From Paludibacteraceae bacterium (GTDB taxonomy: Bacteria > Bacteroidota > Bacteroidia > Bacteroidales > Paludibacteraceae): a DNA stretch of 64,000 bases. The position numbers and the translations under genes were made by a program. The notes under the pieces were generated by a model. That model saw only the letters and a program-made list of their open reading frames with translations. It had not been told where the DNA came from and did no database searches. The stretch covers positions 1-64,000 of the forward strand of contig CAJOEX010000001.1 of NCBI GenBank assembly GCA_905233415.1, given 5' to 3'. This document shows positions 2,341 through 56,786 of the stretch, one piece after another; the first letter of the stretch is position 1, and each line of letters opens with the position of its first letter.

Positions 2341-4455
2341 TCAAACAAGGTCTGCACGACCGCCGCATTCTGTCAGCACGGCTTTCGCTATCGAACTTGT
2401 TACCGGCTCGTAATGTGAGAACTCCATACTGCTGGTTGCACGTCCGGAAGTAATCGTACGCAGAGCCGTCACATAGCCGAACATCTCGGCCAACGGCACT
2501 TTCGCCTTCACGATACGGGCACCCGTGCGGGCGGTATCCATACCTTCAACCTGTCCGCGACGTTTGTTCAAGTCACCAATCACGTCACCCATATTCTCAT
2601 CCGGAGTTACGATTTCAATCTTCATAATCGGCTCCATGAGTACAGGTTTTGCTTTTATACAAGCGTTCTTGAATGCTATCTGCGCACAGATTTCAAAACT
2701 CAACTGGTCACTGTCCACAGGATGAAAACTACCATCCAACACGGTCACTTTCAGTTTGTCAAGCGGGAAGCCTGCCAGTACGCCGTTCTTCATCGCGGTC
2801 TGGAAGCCCTTCTCAATGGCAGGAATATACTCCTTCGGAATATCACCGCCTTTTACCACATCCACAAACTGTAACGTACCCTCAAACTCCGGGTCTGCCG
2901 GTTCCACGCGGACAATGATGTCTGCAAACTTACCGCGACCACCGGTTTGTTTCTTGTACGTCTCACGCAACTCTACCGGAGCGCTGATTGCCTCACGGTA
3001 AGCCACTTGCGGACGCCCCTGGTTGCACTCCACCTTGAACTCGCGTTTCAAGCGGTCAATGATAATCTCAAGGTGCAACTCGCCCATTCCGGAAATAACC
3101 GTCTGACCGGTCTGGTCATCCGTCTTCACCGTGAACGTCGGGTCTTCCTCCGCCAATTTTGCCAATCCTACGCCTAATTTGTCGAGGTCTTGCTGGCTCT
3201 TCGGCTCTACTGAGATACCGATGACCGGAGCGGGGAACTCGATGCTCTCCAGTGTAATCGGTTTTTCTTCCGCGCATAGCGTGTCGCCCGTGCGTATATC
3301 CTTAAATCCTACGCACGCGCCTATGTCGCCTGCGCATATGACATCCACCGGATTCTGGTGATTCGAGTGCATCTGGAAGATACGGCTGATACGTTCTTTC
3401 TTGCCCGAACGGGTGTTATACACGTACGAACCTGCTTCCAGTTTGCCTGAATACACTCTGAAATAGCACAAACGTCCCACATACGGGTCGGTTGCAATCT
3501 TGAACGCCAACGCGCACAATGGCTCATCTTCGCTCGGATGACGTACAACCGGCTTGTCGTTACGCGGGTCTGTACCGGCGATCTCCTCTGCATCCAACGG
3601 ACTTGGCAGATAAGCACAAACGGCATCCAGCATTGTCTGAACGCCTTTGTTCTTAAAGCTCGAACCGCAGATGACGGGGAATATATGCAATCCGACCGTA
3701 CCCTTCCGGATGGCGGAACGGATTTCTTCTTCGGTAATTGTTGACGGGTCGGAGAAATATTTCTCCATCAGCACATCGTCAAATTCCGCACAGGCCTCAA
3801 GCATCTTGTCGCGCCATTCTTCCGCTTCTGCTTGCAGATTGGCGGGAATAGCCTCTTCTACATACTCGGCTCCCAGTGTCTCGTCATGCCAGATGATAGA
3901 CTTCATCTTTATGAGGTCCACCACACCCTTGAATGTTTCTTCTGCACCAACAGGAATCTGAATCGGACACGGAGTCGCACCAAGCGTTTCTTTGATTTGG
4001 CGTACCACATCAAAGAAGTTGGCACCGCTGCGGTCCATCTTGTTCACATAGCAGATACGGGGAACATTATACTTGTCTGCCTGACGCCACACAGTCTCGC
4101 TCTGCGGCTGCACGCCGCCTACTGCGCAGAATGTCGCCACAGCGCCATCCAGAATACGCAGCGAACGCTCCACCTCAACGGTAAAGTCCACGTGACCCGG
4201 AGTGTCTATCAGGTTGATTTTGTATTTCTCGCCGTTGTATGTCCAATAAGTGGTCGTAGCAGCAGACGTGATAGTGATACCACGTTCCTGCTCCTGTTCC
4301 ATCCAGTCCATCGTAGCTGCACCGTCGTGAACCTCACCCATTTTGTGAGTCAGTCCGGTGTAGTAGAGAATACGTTCTGAAGTAGTAGTCTTACCGGCAT
4401 CAATGTGAGCCATGATACCGATATTCCTATTATATTTCAAATCGTGTTTTGCCAT
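2341..4455 (-). CDS. fusA: translation elongation factor G
   Basis: EF-G is the GTPase that drives translocation of tRNA and mRNA. The 704-residue product is of normal length. G-domain motifs are intact: AHIDAGKTT (residues 16-24, P-loop), DTPGH, and NKMD. Switch and domain III-V segments follow, including GMGELHLEI and the C-terminal domain. I start at the ATG at 4455; a TTG one codon upstream is less likely because homologues begin MAK. The 56 bases between this start and rpsG are filled by an 8-bp tandem repeat, leaving no obvious Shine-Dalgarno sequence. Confidence 0.97.
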
Positions 4456-4509
4456 CAAATTTTGAAATCTTCAAATTTTCAAATCTTCAAATTTTCAAAT
4501 CCTCAAATC
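4456..4509. repeat. 8-bp tandem array (TTCAAATY) filling the rpsG-fusA gap
   Basis: About seven near-identical 8-bp units, mostly ttcaaatt and ttcaaatc in alternation, cover the whole gap from 2 bases after the rpsG stop to the base before the fusA ATG. On the mRNA this is a run of GAUUUGAA/AAUUUGAA, forming the entire ribosome-loading region of fusA. The same unit recurs at 5017-5040 and 46167-46182. Confidence 0.85.
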
Positions 4510-4511
4510 TC

Positions 4512-5012: not shown

Positions 5013-5092
5013 AATCTTCAAATTTTCAAATCTTCAAATTCCCTTGGCTGTAATCGCTTCAGGATGTCAATTGTCAATTATCAATTGTCAAC
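5013..5092. repeat. 8-bp and 7-bp tandem repeats in rpsG-rpsL gap
   Basis: Two arrays lie close together. At 5017-5040 there are three 8-bp units (ttcaaatt, ttcaaatc, ttcaaatt), the same unit as in the rpsG-fusA gap. At 5065-5092 there are four 7-bp units (tgtcaat, tgtcaat, tatcaat, tgtcaac). They lie in the transcribed leader of rpsG. No function is evident. Confidence 0.75.
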
Positions 5093-5212
5093 TATCCTTA
5101 CTCAACCGATCAACCCATTTTTAATCTGTCCCAGCGTATGGAACGTTTAGTTAGTTTTTAATCTTGAGCTTCCCGTTCGTCTGTCAGCAGCATGCTGCGG
5201 CCTTACAGTGTA

Positions 5213-5252
5213 ACACTCTCACAGCGAAGCGGTCTAACAGGCGAAGCCGGTC
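5213..5252. repeat. GCGAAGC/GGTC repeat element, intergenic copy
   Basis: Just downstream of rpsL the sequence shows two related units built on agcgaagcggtctaac and aggcgaagccggtctt. The same units occur four times inside the P-loop gene at about 18912-18983, where they are translated. A near-perfect palindrome gcagcatgctgc (about 5187-5198) precedes them. The shared units at two distant sites suggest a dispersed small repeat family. Confidence 0.7.
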
Positions 5253-5255
5253 TTC

Positions 5256-6942: not shown

Positions 6943-8373
6943 ATGATGAAAAAACTGATATTCTCCTTAGCCGCAATGGTGGCGCTTACGGCCGCCGCCC
7001 AGTCGAATGAATCCAATGTCATTTCGATTTCCGTGCACAAACTCATGTACTTCAGCGACTATGCCAAACCCATAGTCGAAAAAGCCATCAACGAATGGCA
7101 GGTCAAAGACGAGTTTGAAAAACTCTCGGACTACCAGAAACGCGTCAACGAACAGACTCGCGCCGCCAAAATCAAGGAACTGACCGCCAAATGCGAGAAA
7201 GCATACATGAAGAAATACGAAGCCACGCTTCGTCCGAATGTGACATTGGATGCCATGTACGACGCAGATAACGAGGTTTTCATGCTCTCCGACCCGACTT
7301 TCGGAAACATGCTTGTCAACGTTCCGCTCTCCGAAGCAAGGGCGTTCAAGCAGAACTGGTCAAGCGTCAAACTCACGCCGAAATACTTCATCGAAAACGA
7401 CGTGATTGCCATGGCGTCGCTGGATATTTATTTCCCGACGCTCCGCAAGCATTATTCCTACTCCAACCAGGCATCCCTGAAATACGAACAGGCGCAGGTG
7501 GACTACAATTTCAACGACATTGAAATTGCCGCTTCCGGCAACAACGCCTCGAAAGGGCAGCAGACCATTTCCGAAAAGAAAGTCTCCGTCGGCAAATCCG
7601 CTGTGGACCAGAATATTCCCGAAACAGGCGCTTCCAACAGTAATACGTTCGTGGTTATTATCGCCAACGAGAATTATAAATCCGTTGCTTCCGTGCCTTA
7701 CGCCATCAACGACGGACATGTGCTGGCGAAATACTGTCAGCGCACGCTCGGCATTCCCGCCACGAACATCAAAGTGCACGACAATGCCACCTACAACGAC
7801 ATGCGTCTGGCTATTGCTTGGCTCAAGAACGTCTGCGACAAGTACGAAGGCGATGCTTCCGTCATTTTCTACTATGCCGGACACGGTATTCCCGATGCAT
7901 CCGACAAATCCGCCTACCTGCTGCCTGTTGACGGCGATGGACGGTATGTCGCAACCGGATACAAACTGGACGAACTCTACGACAAATTAGGCGCTATGCC
8001 CACCAAGTCCGTAACGGTTATTCTGGACGCATGTTTCTCAGGTGCCAATCGTGACGGAAAAATGCTTGCTTCCGAACGTGGCGTGGCGCTCAAATCCCGT
8101 CCCGGGCAGCCCAAAGGAAACATGGTCGTTTTCTCTGCCGCACAAGGCGATGAAACCGCTTTGCCCAACGACCAGGAAGGACACGGCATGTTCACCTACT
8201 ACATCCTCAAGAAACTGCAGGAAACCAAAGGCGATGTGACTTTGCAGGACCTTTCCGCGTATGTTATCCGTGAAGTCGGACGCACTTCCGCCGTTATCAA
8301 CAAACCGCAAACGCCTAGCATCAACCCCTCACCTGCCGTAGTGGATGATTGGAAAAACTGGAAACTTAAATAA
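6943..8373 (+). CDS. exported caspase-like (C14) cysteine peptidase
   Basis: 476 residues. A signal peptide (MMKKLIFSLAAMVALTAAAQ) is followed by a helical/charged N-terminal region (~25-220) and a C14 caspase-fold domain (~225-470). The catalytic dyad is visible: His314 in YYAGHG and Cys364 in ILDACFSGA, each after a hydrophobic strand, with the family's NDA-like loop (PYAINDGHVLAKYC) before them. It is therefore probably an active peptidase of the metacaspase/paracaspase group, working in the periplasm or at the surface. It sits between the FGE-fold gene and the DUF4384-like gene, whose ATG is 7 bases downstream. Substrate unknown. Confidence 0.85.
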   Translation: MMKKLIFSLAAMVALTAAAQSNESNVISISVHKLMYFSDYAKPIVEKAINEWQVKDEFEKLSDYQKRVNEQTRAAKIKELTAKCEKAYMKKYEATLRPNVTLDAMYDADNEVFMLSDPTFGNMLVNVPLSEARAFKQNWSSVKLTPKYFIENDVIAMASLDIYFPTLRKHYSYSNQASLKYEQAQVDYNFNDIEIAASGNNASKGQQTISEKKVSVGKSAVDQNIPETGASNSNTFVVIIANENYKSVASVPYAINDGHVLAKYCQRTLGIPATNIKVHDNATYNDMRLAIAWLKNVCDKYEGDASVIFYYAGHGIPDASDKSAYLLPVDGDGRYVATGYKLDELYDKLGAMPTKSVTVILDACFSGANRDGKMLASERGVALKSRPGQPKGNMVVFSAAQGDETALPNDQEGHGMFTYYILKKLQETKGDVTLQDLSAYVIREVGRTSAVINKPQTPSINPSPAVVDDWKNWKLK

Positions 8374-8380
8374 AACCGAT

Positions 8381-9271
8381 ATGAAACGTATATTTATCTG
8401 TGTGCTGTGTGCTGTTTTCTCTATTCCTTTCTTCGCCGCCAAGCCGAATGTGAAGGAAATTGTTTATGATTACGTTTATCGCTCCAACGACCGCAACGAG
8501 TCACAGTCACAGGCCGAACAACATGCCATCGAAAAAGCCAAGCAGAAAGCCCTCGAAGACTATTTCGGTTTGGATGTCAGCAGTATTGTGGTCACGATGG
8601 AAACCGAGCACGGCAACGATGGCAAATACTCCGACGAAGACGATTTCTATTCGCTCGGAAGCACGGTTGCACGCGGCGAATGGATTGAACAACGCGACGA
8701 ACGCGTGATTGAATCCCGCCACAATGGCGAATTCTGGGAAGTCAAAGTGCATGTCGAAGGTACCGCCCGCGAGAAAACCGGCACGCCAATCGACATCAAA
8801 TATTCCTTTATCAGTAACCAATTTGACCGCGAAAGTCGCACTATTTATTACGACCAGGACGACCTCCTTATGCGTTTCACCTCGCCTGTGGACGGCATGT
8901 TGTGCGTTTACCTGGTCGATGCGGAAAAGACGGCATACTGCCTGCTGCCGTTGGAAGGTAACGGTGCCGGCGCACAGGAAATCAAAGCCAATGAAGATTA
9001 CGTCTTCTTCCGGCCGGAACCATCCCTCGCTTTCCCGGGCTACAAACTGACAACCACGCAGAAGCAGGAGCAGAACGTGATTTACATCATCTTCTCGCCG
9101 AACCGCATAACAAAAGCACGTGACTTGAAAGGCCAAAAGAATATGCAAGGCGACAACCTCCCACGCAATCTGGCATATGAAGACTTTATCCGTTGGCTGG
9201 CAAAGAACCAGACAGCCGATGCAGATTTATTGGTCAGAACAGAACACATCCAAATCAAAAAAATCCGATAA
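8381..9271 (+). CDS. exported DUF4384-like protein
   Basis: 296 residues starting at the ATG at 8381 (MKRIFICVLCAVFSIPFFA, a signal peptide); the open frame extends 12 codons upstream but overlaps the caspase gene. Residues ~25-130 are charged and helical. Residues ~150-230 resemble DUF4384 (SPVDGMLCVYLVD ... YCLLPLEGNG ... EDYVFF), a small beta domain often found next to or fused with bacterial caspase-like and kinase-like proteins. The C-terminal tail is basic. As third gene of the operon it is a likely partner of the caspase-like protein. Assignment to DUF4384 is by eye. Confidence 0.7.
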   Translation: MKRIFICVLCAVFSIPFFAAKPNVKEIVYDYVYRSNDRNESQSQAEQHAIEKAKQKALEDYFGLDVSSIVVTMETEHGNDGKYSDEDDFYSLGSTVARGEWIEQRDERVIESRHNGEFWEVKVHVEGTAREKTGTPIDIKYSFISNQFDRESRTIYYDQDDLLMRFTSPVDGMLCVYLVDAEKTAYCLLPLEGNGAGAQEIKANEDYVFFRPEPSLAFPGYKLTTTQKQEQNVIYIIFSPNRITKARDLKGQKNMQGDNLPRNLAYEDFIRWLAKNQTADADLLVRTEHIQIKKIR

Positions 9272-9310
9272 AACGAACACAAAACAGCCTCATTTTTTCC
9301 TTGTCAAGTA

Positions 9311-9365
9311 CGATAGATATACGTTAGATTTACGTTAGATTGACGATACATTGACGATAGATTAC
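9311..9365. repeat. 11-bp tandem array A (five units)
   Basis: Five consecutive 11-bp units: cgatagatata, cgttagattta, cgttagattga, cgatacattga, cgatagattac. The spacing is exact although the bases vary. The array ends 9 bases before the ATG of the sugar kinase and lies 39 bases after the preceding stop. It is one of at least four such arrays in this window. Confidence 0.85.
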
Positions 9366-9374
9366 GCTACTCTT

Positions 9375-10265
9375 ATGCGAAGACGAGTGATTGGAATCGG
9401 AGAAACCGTTTTGGACATTCTGTTCAAGAACGACCAGCCGCAAAAAGCTGTTCCGGGAGGCTCCACGTTCAACAGCATCGTTTCACTTGGACGGGCAGGA
9501 ATCTCCTGTGCCATGGTTACGGAAGCCGGAGACGACCACATCGGCGACATCATCTGCCGTTTCCTGCACGAGAATGGGGTCTCTGCAGACTTTGTCTGCC
9601 GCCACAAAAACGTCAAATCCCACATTTCGCTTGCTTTTTTGGATGACAAGAATGATGCGCAGTATGTTTTCTACAAAGACCATGCGTCTGTTTCCCTGGA
9701 CGGTCCGCTGCCCGAAATACAGCCTGACGACATCATTTTGTTTGGTTCGTTCTTTGCTATCAATCCCGCCATTCGTCCGGTGGTGGGCACGTTGCTGCAT
9801 GAAGCACGAAAAGCCGGCGCTTGGTTGTATTACGATGTCAATTTCCGCAAACCGCACATTGCCGATTTGCCGCAGGTGATGACCAATATCGAGGAGAACA
9901 TGCAACTTTCGGATGTCGTACGCGGCTCAACGGAGGACTTTGCCTATTTGTACGGTTTGCACGACGGCGAAGCCATCTATAACAAAGTCAAATCCTTCTG
10001 CAACACACTTATCCTGACCGACGGAGCGCATCCCATCCGCATCTTTACGCCTTCCGGCTGCGAGACATATCCTGTGCAACCGATAGAAACCGTCAGCACG
10101 GTTGGAGCCGGAGACAATTTCAATGCCGGATACATTTATGCGCTTTTACAAGGCAAAAACGACCAGGCAGAACGCATTGCCATGGCGCAGCGTTGGAGTC
10201 AGGACGTATGCCGCCAGATTGGTAATAATATCAGCGACGATTTGGTCGCACGGCTGCGTGTTTGA
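9375..10265 (+). CDS. PfkB-family carbohydrate kinase (fructokinase-like)
   Basis: A ribokinase-fold sugar kinase of 296 residues, transferring the gamma-phosphate of ATP to a sugar. The N-terminal signature GGSTFNSIVSLGRAG and the C-terminal signature VSTVGAGDNFNAGY are present; Asp247 in GAGD is the predicted catalytic base. I start at the ATG at 9375 (MRRRVIGIGETVLDI); an open frame begins 8 codons earlier inside the 11-bp array and would be unusual. No promoter of the consensus form is seen directly upstream. The substrate cannot be read from sequence; fructose is a common one for this subgroup. Confidence 0.88.
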   Translation: MRRRVIGIGETVLDILFKNDQPQKAVPGGSTFNSIVSLGRAGISCAMVTEAGDDHIGDIICRFLHENGVSADFVCRHKNVKSHISLAFLDDKNDAQYVFYKDHASVSLDGPLPEIQPDDIILFGSFFAINPAIRPVVGTLLHEARKAGAWLYYDVNFRKPHIADLPQVMTNIEENMQLSDVVRGSTEDFAYLYGLHDGEAIYNKVKSFCNTLILTDGAHPIRIFTPSGCETYPVQPIETVSTVGAGDNFNAGYIYALLQGKNDQAERIAMAQRWSQDVCRQIGNNISDDLVARLRV

Positions 10266-10385: not shown

Positions 10386-11006
10386 ATGATAGAATACATC
10401 AAAGGAAAACTGACTGAACTGAACCCTACCTACGCGGTTTTGGAAGCTGCCGGAGTGGGATATGAAATAAACATCACCCTGCCGACATATTCAGACCTTG
10501 TCGGCAAAGAAAATTCCGAAGCCAAACTCTTCGTGAACGAAATTATTCGCGAAGATACGCACGACTTGTACGGTTTCTTCACAAAAGGAGAGCGCGAATT
10601 GTTCATTATGCTCATGACGGTCAGCGGTATCGGTGCCAACACCGCCCGGATGATTATGTCCGCTTATACCGCAGGCGAAATCCGGCAGATTATTGCCACT
10701 GGCAATTCCCGCTCCCTGGGGCAAATCAAAGGTCTCGGACCCAAAACTGCCCAACGTATTATTGTGGATTTGAAGGACAAAGTGCTGAAGATTGATTTGG
10801 GCGATGGTGTCACTAACGGCAATGAAACGGCAACGGATATGCTCTTCCCGACGGAAGAAAATCCGGTCAAGACCGAGGCGGTAAGCGCACTCACTATGTT
10901 GGGATTTGCAGCCGCAGCAAGCGGCAAAGCCGTTGATAAGATACTCAAAGAAACACCGGCTGCCACAGTCGAGGCCGTCATTCGACAGGCGTTAAAAATG
11001 CTTTGA
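10386..11006 (+). CDS. ruvA: Holliday junction DNA helicase subunit RuvA
   Basis: RuvA binds four-way junctions as a tetramer and loads RuvB for branch migration. The 206-residue protein shows the OB-fold domain I (MIEYIKGKLTE ... VGYEINITLPTY), the tandem helix-hairpin-helix domain II (TVSGIGANTARMIMSAY and IKGLGPKTAQRIIVDLKDK) and the small C-terminal domain III that contacts RuvB (SALTMLGFAAAASGKAVDKIL). Length is typical. It is joined to sprA, a gene pair seen in other Bacteroidetes. Confidence 0.96.
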   Translation: MIEYIKGKLTELNPTYAVLEAAGVGYEINITLPTYSDLVGKENSEAKLFVNEIIREDTHDLYGFFTKGERELFIMLMTVSGIGANTARMIMSAYTAGEIRQIIATGNSRSLGQIKGLGPKTAQRIIVDLKDKVLKIDLGDGVTNGNETATDMLFPTEENPVKTEAVSALTMLGFAAAASGKAVDKILKETPAATVEAVIRQALKML

Positions 11007-18730: not shown

Positions 18731-19229
18731 TATCGCAATTGTTGGTCCCGAATCCTCCGGCAAAACTACATTGGCAAAGTACCTTGCCAACCGTTACAAC
18801 GGCCTTTTCGTGCCCGAATATGCCCGTGAGTACATGGAGAACCTCAATCGTCCCTACACATACGAAGATGTCGAATCCATCGCCCGCCACCAAATTGAGC
18901 AACTCGCCGGTCTAACAGGCGAAGCCGGTCCAATAGCGAAGCGGTCTGACAGCGAAGCGGTCCAACAGCCGAAGGCGGTCTTCTTTGATACCGAACTGAT
19001 CATCACCAAAGTCTGGTTCGAGCATAAATACGGGCAATGCCCCGAATGGCTGGTCAAGGCCTTGCATGATTATCCGATGGATGTCTATTTGCTTTGTTAT
19101 CCCGACTTGCCGTGGGTGCCCGACCCTGTGCGGGAGAATCCGGATATTCGCATGGAGCTTTTCAACCGTTATGAATCCGAAATCCAAACCCTTAACATCC
19201 CCTACTACATCATCCGCCACAGTACCTGA
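18684..19229 (+). CDS. NadR-like P-loop ATPase/kinase with unclear start
   Basis: Resembles the C-terminal kinase part of NadR (nicotinamide riboside kinase-like, AAA_28). Visible: Walker A GPESSGKTT, the NadR-like PEYAREYMENLNRPYTYEDV, and FFDTELIITKVWFE with DLPWVPDPVREN downstream. Odd points: the open frame from 18684 has no ATG, GTG or TTG before Walker A; the first TTG (18771) is after it. An in-frame ATG at 18672 is followed by TGA three codons on. Translation may begin at an AUA/AUC/AUU codon or the gene may have lost its start. A block of about 20 residues between HQIEQL and VFFDTE is encoded by the GCGAAGC repeat and looks like an insertion. Start given as the limit of the open frame. 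Confidence 0.65.
   Translation, partial: VKDKINRQIVNRQIVNIAIVGPESSGKTTLAKYLANRYNGLFVPEYAREYMENLNRPYTYEDVESIARHQIEQLAGLTGEAGPIAKRSDSEAVQQPKAVFFDTELIITKVWFEHKYGQCPEWLVKALHDYPMDVYLLCYPDLPWVPDPVRENPDIRMELFNRYESEIQTLNIPYYIIRHST
18912..18983. repeat. GCGAAGC/GGTC repeat element inside a coding region
   Basis: Four units of 16-18 bp (ggtctaacaggcgaagcc, ggtccaatagcgaagc, ggtctgacagcgaagc, ggtccaacagccgaaggc) lie within the P-loop gene and keep its frame, adding GEAGPIAKRSDSEAVQQPK-type sequence. The first unit is identical to one beside rpsL at about 5225-5245. This points to insertion of a dispersed repeat into a gene. Confidence 0.75.
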
Positions 19230-19271
19230 CCGAGAGATGACCGAGAGATGACCGAGAGATGACCGGGACTT
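19228..19271. repeat. 11-bp tandem array B (starts in the stop codon)
   Basis: Three perfect copies of gaccgagagat (19228-19260) and a fourth degenerate copy (gaccgggactt). The first unit overlaps the TGA stop (19227-19229) of the P-loop gene, so read as TGACCGAGAGA the array begins exactly at the stop. Each unit carries TGA, and since 11 is 2 modulo 3 the copies put stops in all three frames. Confidence 0.9.
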
Positions 19272-19342
19272 CATCAGGCTGCCCTGCCCCCCCTTGTCTA
19301 AGATTTGAAAATGCGGGCTACCCTGCATTTTAAGGGAAATTA

Positions 19343-19394
19343 GTGAGTGAGTGAGTGAGTGAGTGAGTGAGTGAGTGAGTGAGTGAGTGAGTGA
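19343..19394. repeat. tetranucleotide microsatellite (GTGA)x13
   Basis: Thirteen uninterrupted copies of GTGA, 79 bases upstream of the -33 element of the fimbrial operon promoter. Between 19229 and 19659 there is no gene, only array B, this microsatellite and the promoter. Such tracts change length by slippage; the location suggests possible variation in expression of the fimbriae. Confidence 0.95.
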
Positions 19395-42194: not shown

Positions 42195-42332
42195 CAGCAG
42201 GATGCAGACAGGTCTATGGCAGGGTGATGACACGGTCAGGTACCGAGCAGGAACCGAGCAGGTACCGAGGTTGAATGTCGAAATTTAATCGACTTTGAAT
42301 CGAAAAAGAATCGATTTGGAGTCGTTTTTTAC
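42192..42332. repeat. 11-bp tandem array C (about twelve units, three sub-blocks)
   Basis: It starts in the TGA stop of the preceding gene: tgacagcagga, tgcagacaggt, ctatggcaggg, tgatgacacgg; after a 5-base slip, taccgagcagg, aaccgagcagg, taccgaggttg; after 4 bases, tcgaaatttaa, tcgactttgaa, tcgaaaaagaa, tcgatttggag, tcgttttttac. The period is 11 in all blocks although the sequences differ. It fills most of the 198-base gap to the next gene; I see no promoter there. Confidence 0.85.
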
Positions 42333-56731: not shown

Positions 56732-56786
56732 AGGGTTCTGTCATCGTACTGTCACCCTTCTGTCACCCTTCTGTCACCCTTCGTAT
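56732..56786. repeat. 11-bp tandem array D (five units)
   Basis: Units on the plus strand: agggttctgtc, atcgtactgtc, acccttctgtc, acccttctgtc, acccttcgtat. On the transcribed minus strand they read GGGTGACAGAA and the like, carrying TGAC in four of five. The array fills most of the 77-base gap between the nucleotidyltransferase stop and the galE start. Confidence 0.88.

Follow-up and report, generated by a model that had tools for sequence, protein, structure and literature searches.

A dispersed family of 11-bp tandem arrays in Paludibacteraceae genomes, one of them upstream of a putative sugar kinase gene, is linked to a nearly genus-restricted basic protein family

The stretch of Paludibacteraceae DNA analysed here (64,000 nucleotides, henceforth referred to as the window) contains, directly in front of a putative sugar kinase gene, a tandem array of 11-bp units, and the question that this locus raises is what keeps such an array in period and what it is for. 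The array occupies positions 9309-9363 of the plus strand, between a co-directional ORF of 308 aa (8345-9271, plus strand), whose stop lies 37 bp before it, and the kinase gene (9375-10265, plus strand; PfkB-like, 296 aa, named from the preliminary description and from motifs). TRF reported period 11, 5.0 copies and 86% match at 9309-9363, and the gap that holds the array (9272-9374) gave a lag-11 self-match score of 29, a value that none of 5000 dinucleotide shuffles reached (shuffle maximum 11). The five 11-bp units that the preliminary description had placed at 9311-9365 are those of this array, with the register shifted by two bases. The units run TACGATAGATA TACGTTAGATT TACGTTAGATT GACGATACATT GACGATAGATT and are followed by ACGCTACTCTT (9364-9374, plus strand), a weakly conserved continuation directly 5' of the ATG at 9375, so that the kinase start lies 11 bp beyond the end of the array. 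On the other side the left flank, TTTTTTCCTTGTCAAG (9293-9308, plus strand), is in part conserved at other copies in the same genome. The units are contiguous and have no unique spacers, and a CRISPR array was therefore rejected. We refer to arrays of this unit, with consensus TACGATAGATT and degenerate form YACGWTASATW, as family A.

The kinase gap is not the only repeat-bearing gap of the window. Several arrays of the same period had been noted before, and TRF confirmed three: unit TGACCGAGAGA at 19227-19268 (plus strand; also listed as 19227-19265), unit CAGGTACCGAG at 42237-42269 (plus strand) and unit GGGTGACAGAA at 56735-56782 (minus strand; also listed as 56736-56782), the last between two minus-strand ORFs in the same stop-array-start layout as the kinase gap. 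Two units near ACGGCAACGAG, with up to 2 mismatches each, lie inside an ORF at 10816-10837 (plus strand); they resemble the unit in front of one gene of the protein family described below (C9:18934-19254, where the unit is ACGGCAACGAG) and may be a chance match. Tandem arrays of 7 and 8 bp (TCAAATCT, AATCTTCA and TGTCAAT) occur in the gaps at 4455-4510, 5013-5039 and 5065-5096. A perfect AGTG repeat at 19342-19394 (13.2 copies, TRF) is a candidate slippage site, and a CGGTCTAACAGCGAAG repeat, found inside an ORF at 18908-18981 and again in a gap at about 5220-5255, is possibly a dispersed element.

To see how the period behaves beyond the window, 711 kb of its own genome (G000, a MAG of 2.05 Mb in 53 contigs, 95.6% complete) were sampled, which is about a third of it. 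The 40 stretches were not random: 20 tile most of the window's contig (C1) and two thirds of a second contig (C5), chosen in the knowledge that it held hits, and the other 20 were cut around family A BLAST hits, which inflates the density of family A and not that of other units. In this sample TRF found 43 arrays of period 11, 14 of period 22 and 7 of period 33, and the same count in three Markov controls gave 2, 0 and 0. When intergenic and genic sequence were separated by gene calls from a simple longest-ORF rule, 44 lag-11 self-match segments were intergenic and 4 genic, compared with 1/2, 0/1, 0/4 and 0/0 at lags 9, 10, 12 and 13. Lags 7 and 8 were also in excess (17/11 and 21/6), and period 11 is the strongest but not the sole excess in the gaps of this genome. 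Two congeners gave the same picture at lag 11, with intergenic/genic counts of 10/1 in G011, a genome that gave no match to the family A pattern, and 11/5 in G033, where the stretches were picked around hits; one genome of another family (G057) gave 0 segments at every lag at the same threshold. The intergenic excess at 11 bp, proposed as a check on the locus, is thus seen in the own genome and two congeners, although not at 11 bp alone. Several unrelated period-11 units occur in each genome examined. Cyanobacteria likewise have short tandem repeats of constant period dispersed between genes, the STRR heptamers; the present arrays differ in their period of 11 and in the linked protein family.

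Family A is itself dispersed. With the window region as DNA query, BLAST returned 33 matches in the own genome, from which 30 family A arrays were extracted in register, and 29 arrays of the family A unit were counted in the 711 kb, where half of the stretches had been chosen around hits already known; the reversed unit gave 0. Parts of a left flank (tccttattttttccttgtcaaa) recur at many of these copies, as do parts of a right flank that reads gcaagaacgctac or accgNactcttgc, the counterparts of ACGCTACTCTT in the window; in several relatives the left flank looks, by eye, 11-bp phased and TCCGCTATCTT-like. A second dispersed sequence, around GTAGCGACGTACAGGGTAGGAGCGACCGCCAAATATCC, was seen directly left of several family A arrays (L088, L090, L094, L095, L097 and L098). 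When a run of three units, with no more than one mismatch, was searched for in 151 genomes of the genus, 67 contained this family A pattern; the control with the pattern reversed gave zero in every genome except G156. Among the matches listed, the named contigs are mostly ruminant-gut Paludibacteraceae MAGs, with a few labelled Bacteroidales, Bacteroidia or Prevotella. Arrays contain 3-14 units, and G033 has long ones.

The unit is constrained rather than free to drift. Across 737 units from 111 family A arrays on named contigs of the genus, positions 2, 3, 4, 6, 7, 9 and 10 are 97.8 to 99.5% one base, percentages that are somewhat flattering because units were admitted by a score rewarding those positions; variation falls on position 1 (mainly T or C), position 5 (mainly A or T) and position 8 (mainly G or C). 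The proposal that period is kept while sequence drifts therefore stands for the exact period and needs amending for the drift, which in the own genome is mostly confined to positions 1, 5 and 8. Neighbouring units of family A arrays in the own genome differ by 167 complementary transversions, 35 transitions and 34 other changes, and in its period-7 and period-8 arrays transitions lead. In the wider genus sample of family A there are 353 complementary transversions and 358 transitions, the latter being as many because position 1 varies between C and T there. The exact one-turn period and the constrained positions fit selection on spacing, one of the explanations first offered, if exerted by a protein; the variant in which stop codons are cycled through the frames is not supported, since none of the sense frames of units such as ACGGCAACGAG, TACGGACGATA and CAGGTACCGAG has a stop triplet.

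Where the arrays sit was determined for 164 family A arrays flanked on each side by a called gene, of which 82 lie in tandem gaps in sense orientation, 24 in tandem gaps in antisense, 35 in divergent and 23 in convergent gaps. The 82:24 bias gives a binomial p=1e-8, a value that is too small because loci overlap in part and species are related. Some arrays are preceded, at a distance of 22 to 33 bp, by a promoter-like word, TAnnTTTG; more commonly the word follows the array, about 90 to 140 bp further on. Inspection by eye showed no function common to the genes downstream of family A arrays, and few of these genes were met again in other species, unlike a conserved regulon. Turnover at individual gaps is evident: none of 10 kinase orthologues in relatives has an array, of 16 mazG loci only the one in the own genome does, and of 29 folC loci two do, namely the own one and that of G084. 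In G084 (L320) the gap between the aminotransferase gene and folC holds about seven units of TATGTGATTAG where the own genome has family A, and in G076, the closest relative at that gap, the two genes overlap. The arrays at the three genes compared are lineage-specific. Loss in close relatives with no replacement had been named as an outcome that would refute the proposal, and it is borne out in part: most relatives have no array in the three gaps examined, but arrays are present at other places in their genomes, and one species has, in the corresponding gap, an array built of another unit.

Clustering of array-adjacent genes showed that the gene most often behind arrays encodes one protein type (13 loci), an orphan of about 120 aa that is basic (median pI 10.1). 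A first query gave a best E-value of 0.025 against Pfam, and 48 members compared with Pfam, NCBIfam, PHROGs and PDB sequences gave nothing convincing. A single-sequence search over 60 relatives found the protein in this genus only; a profile of 48 rows matched 2 of 198 genomes of the order, which are the own genome itself and G214, and it had no match in two other genera of the family. By these searches the family appears nearly genus-restricted. In the own genome the profile gave 24 matches up to E=10, 16 of them with E below 1e-8; the best (C30:660-1001, in a gene at C30:660-1013) lies behind a family A array, and others lie behind ACGGCAACGAG, CCGAATGTTAA, ACCGACGGTCA, ATTCCTGCACT and TATTAGGTTAT arrays. 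AlphaFold2, run on the 48-row alignment (mean pLDDT 82, pTM 0.65), predicts a beta-hairpin at residues 21-38 (pLDDT about 72-76) followed by helices at 47-68, 70-88 and 102-117, and Foldseek searches with this model gave best E-values of 0.7 in PDB and 0.2 in BFVD. LytTR regulators, considered as an alternative binder, are not expanded (1 in the own genome and 0 in G033, which had more family A matches than any other genome in the pattern search). Seven homologues of about 280 aa (L389, L366, L395, L370, L386, L391 and L367) have a C-terminal part that resembles, by eye, a GNAT (ElaA-like) acetyltransferase; upstream of each there is a period-11 segment, in several cases made of ACCATAGGATA-like units. 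Another set in the own genome (L401, L403, L404 and L406-L413) is mostly without an upstream array (L404 has a weak one) and includes several near-identical copies, some near contig ends and some beside a short lipoprotein-like ORF.

The association between array and protein was assessed in several ways; score thresholds ranged from 12 to 15 and upstream lengths from 350 to 500 bp, and shared descent is still included in all of these tests. Of 48 homologues collected solely by protein search, 34 are preceded by a lag-11 array at no more than 350 bp, and the corresponding figures for background genes with an upstream lag-11 segment are 50/508, 10/152 and 15/158 (about 9%); at lags 6-10 and 12-19 the same 48 homologues yielded 0 to 5 with an upstream segment. 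Further loci retrieved with the profile of one subtype (henceforth type A) had an array upstream in 15 of 16 distinct proteins, duplicates having been dropped. Protein distance correlates with unit distance (r=0.671, 51 pairs, 0 of 2000 permutations), a correlation that could arise in part simply because array and gene are inherited together. When the regression was resolved by protein region (62 pairs), weight fell on residues 20-38 and 39-46 of the C30 protein, that is on the hairpin and the segment after it, and the helices carried almost none. Among the 151 genomes the family A pattern was present in 38 of 45 with a type A protein and in 29 of 106 without (Fisher p=7e-11); for this comparison the cut-off (E<=1e-44) had been picked by eye while the hit list was read and the counts were made by hand, and the genomes are related and not independent. 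The region beside murA illustrates the linkage: at four loci there one and the same protein subtype goes with arrays of the CGAAAACG or ACGGCAACGAG type, and a fifth combines a type A protein with a family A array. We regard the link between array and protein as very probably real.

One unit present at about 30 loci, together with one gene that has this unit in front of it, requires either recognition of the arrays or their copying, and the fixed degenerate positions, the basic protein, its hairpin and the one-turn period favour recognition. The explanation that we prefer for the observed arrays, their dispersal, the constraint on the unit, the tie between unit type and protein subtype, and the joint presence of family A arrays and type A proteins across genomes is that each array is a cooperative binding-site array for a sequence-specific member of this basic protein family, and we hold it with moderate confidence. 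Most family members would have their own 11-bp unit in tandem before their own gene, with one protein unit contacting each helical turn, which would be why the period is fixed at 11 and only certain positions vary. A member would regulate its own gene through the array in front of it; copies of that array elsewhere in the genome would be quickly gained and lost in intergenic gaps, where they would bring other genes, here the kinase gene, within reach of the same protein or else act as silent target sites. Taken singly, binding to DNA is the more secure part, and we consider it reasonably probable; for a regulatory role of the arrays the case appears evenly balanced. Operators of the OmpR/PhoB type (the pho box) are likewise built of 11-bp direct repeats, and the array at 56735-56782 even has CTGTCA-like units. 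Despite this likeness of one-turn direct repeats before genes, the present units differ between paralogues and number up to 14, and the linked proteins showed no sequence relationship to the Pfam families encountered in these searches.

Several results count against the binding-site explanation. Fourteen of the 48 homologues are without an array; 29 genomes, including G074 and G131 (>90% completeness), have family A arrays and no strong type A protein; several units that stand before homologues in the own genome have few or no dispersed copies in the 711 kb; several array families, e.g. CTGTGACGTTA, CAGGTACCGAG, TGACCGAGAGA and GGGTGACAGAA, yielded no partner protein; and no known fold or family in Pfam, NCBIfam, PHROGs, PDB or Foldseek searches backs DNA binding.

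The quick turnover keeps a second explanation in contention, namely that the arrays are self-copying dispersed repeats which the linked protein moves or copies, with regulation secondary or absent. The comparison is with REP/REPIN sequences and their REP-associated tyrosine transposases (PMC3116915, PMC2817692), which are likewise scattered outside genes, depend on a link to one gene of their genome and also occur near that gene. Copying would suit the mainly intergenic dispersal, the partly conserved flanks that accompany the copies in the own genome, the lpxH stop codon that overlaps a first unit, and the lpxH-mazG and aminotransferase-folC gaps, which are without the own-genome array in the relatives examined (with the overlapping genes of G076). 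We nevertheless consider it unlikely. The copies differ outside the array, and the fixed Y/W/S variation is unlike the result of plain copying; the units are direct and not palindromic, with self-complementarity at random level. The linked protein belongs to no recognisable catalytic family and is not a Y1 transposase, and as a separate mover a Y1/RAYT transposase was rejected: PF01797 has 0 matches in the own genome despite its about 30 arrays, and 0 in G012, G014 and G021, all of which have family A arrays. A RAYT-like gene (motif MPDHLHVV) adjoins a homologue at three loci of other genomes (L042, L362 and L430).

Binding of the arrays as RNA, in 5' leaders and between the genes of operons, with control of translation or transcript stability, would account for the sense bias in tandem gaps, for an array that ends 11 nt before the kinase ATG and for those arrays before the protein's own gene that begin 22-33 bp after a TAnnTTTG site. 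This reading is hard to reconcile with the 24 antisense tandem and 23 convergent placements and with the many arrays that lie upstream of the promoter-like site and not after it, and we judge it distinctly improbable. RNA hairpins were rejected, as folding showed no structure beyond mononucleotide shuffles (z about 0), which tells against RNA recognition only in part, a single-strand binder needing none.

A role of the arrays in anchoring the chromosome (partition or nucleoid organisation), in the manner of a dispersed centromere, is suggested by a likeness of tandem 11-bp direct repeats before the gene of a small basic protein to the system of the R1 plasmid, whose ParR requires at least two 11-bp repeats (PMC9426499). 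The likeness to ParMRC (ParR on parC) extends to a small DNA-binding protein and a repeat specific for its cognate protein, where binding in the present case is presumed; however, the arrays here are many, scattered over the chromosome and mostly between ordinary genes, and ParR is a ribbon-helix-helix protein, whereas the model here has a hairpin and three helices and no PDB or Pfam match. No ParM-like motor gene was seen by eye among the neighbours at 14 homologue loci of the own genome, which are ordinary genes, and this, the transcription-linked orientation bias and the many different units per genome make anchoring very improbable. Neutral minisatellites arising by replication slippage are scarcely credible: the unit number does vary (3-14, with the long arrays of G033), but one unit at about 30 unrelated loci with seven of 11 positions 97-99% fixed across many species, and a unit type linked to protein subtype, contradict slippage with a fixed step as a sufficient cause, as had been suggested for this locus.

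Returning to the binding-site explanation, a limited search of the open literature found no account of 11-bp arrays in this bacterial group, and the searches for a family or a fold gave no match either. In its fullest form, which we put forward tentatively, each subfamily would read its own 11-bp DNA word through the beta-hairpin and the segment that follows, protein and word would change together, and arrays would spread from the protein's own promoter into new gaps, rewiring or parasitising the genome. Should the proteins be ordinary repressors, they would constitute a new family of a known kind. If the fuller proposal is true, one genus would hold a natural series of many protein-DNA word pairs, and aligning them could reveal a recognition code; a further kind of genome-wide repeat tied to a host protein would stand beside REP/RAYT, and a repeat landscape of rumen and gut bacteria that is absent from the libraries used here would be accounted for.
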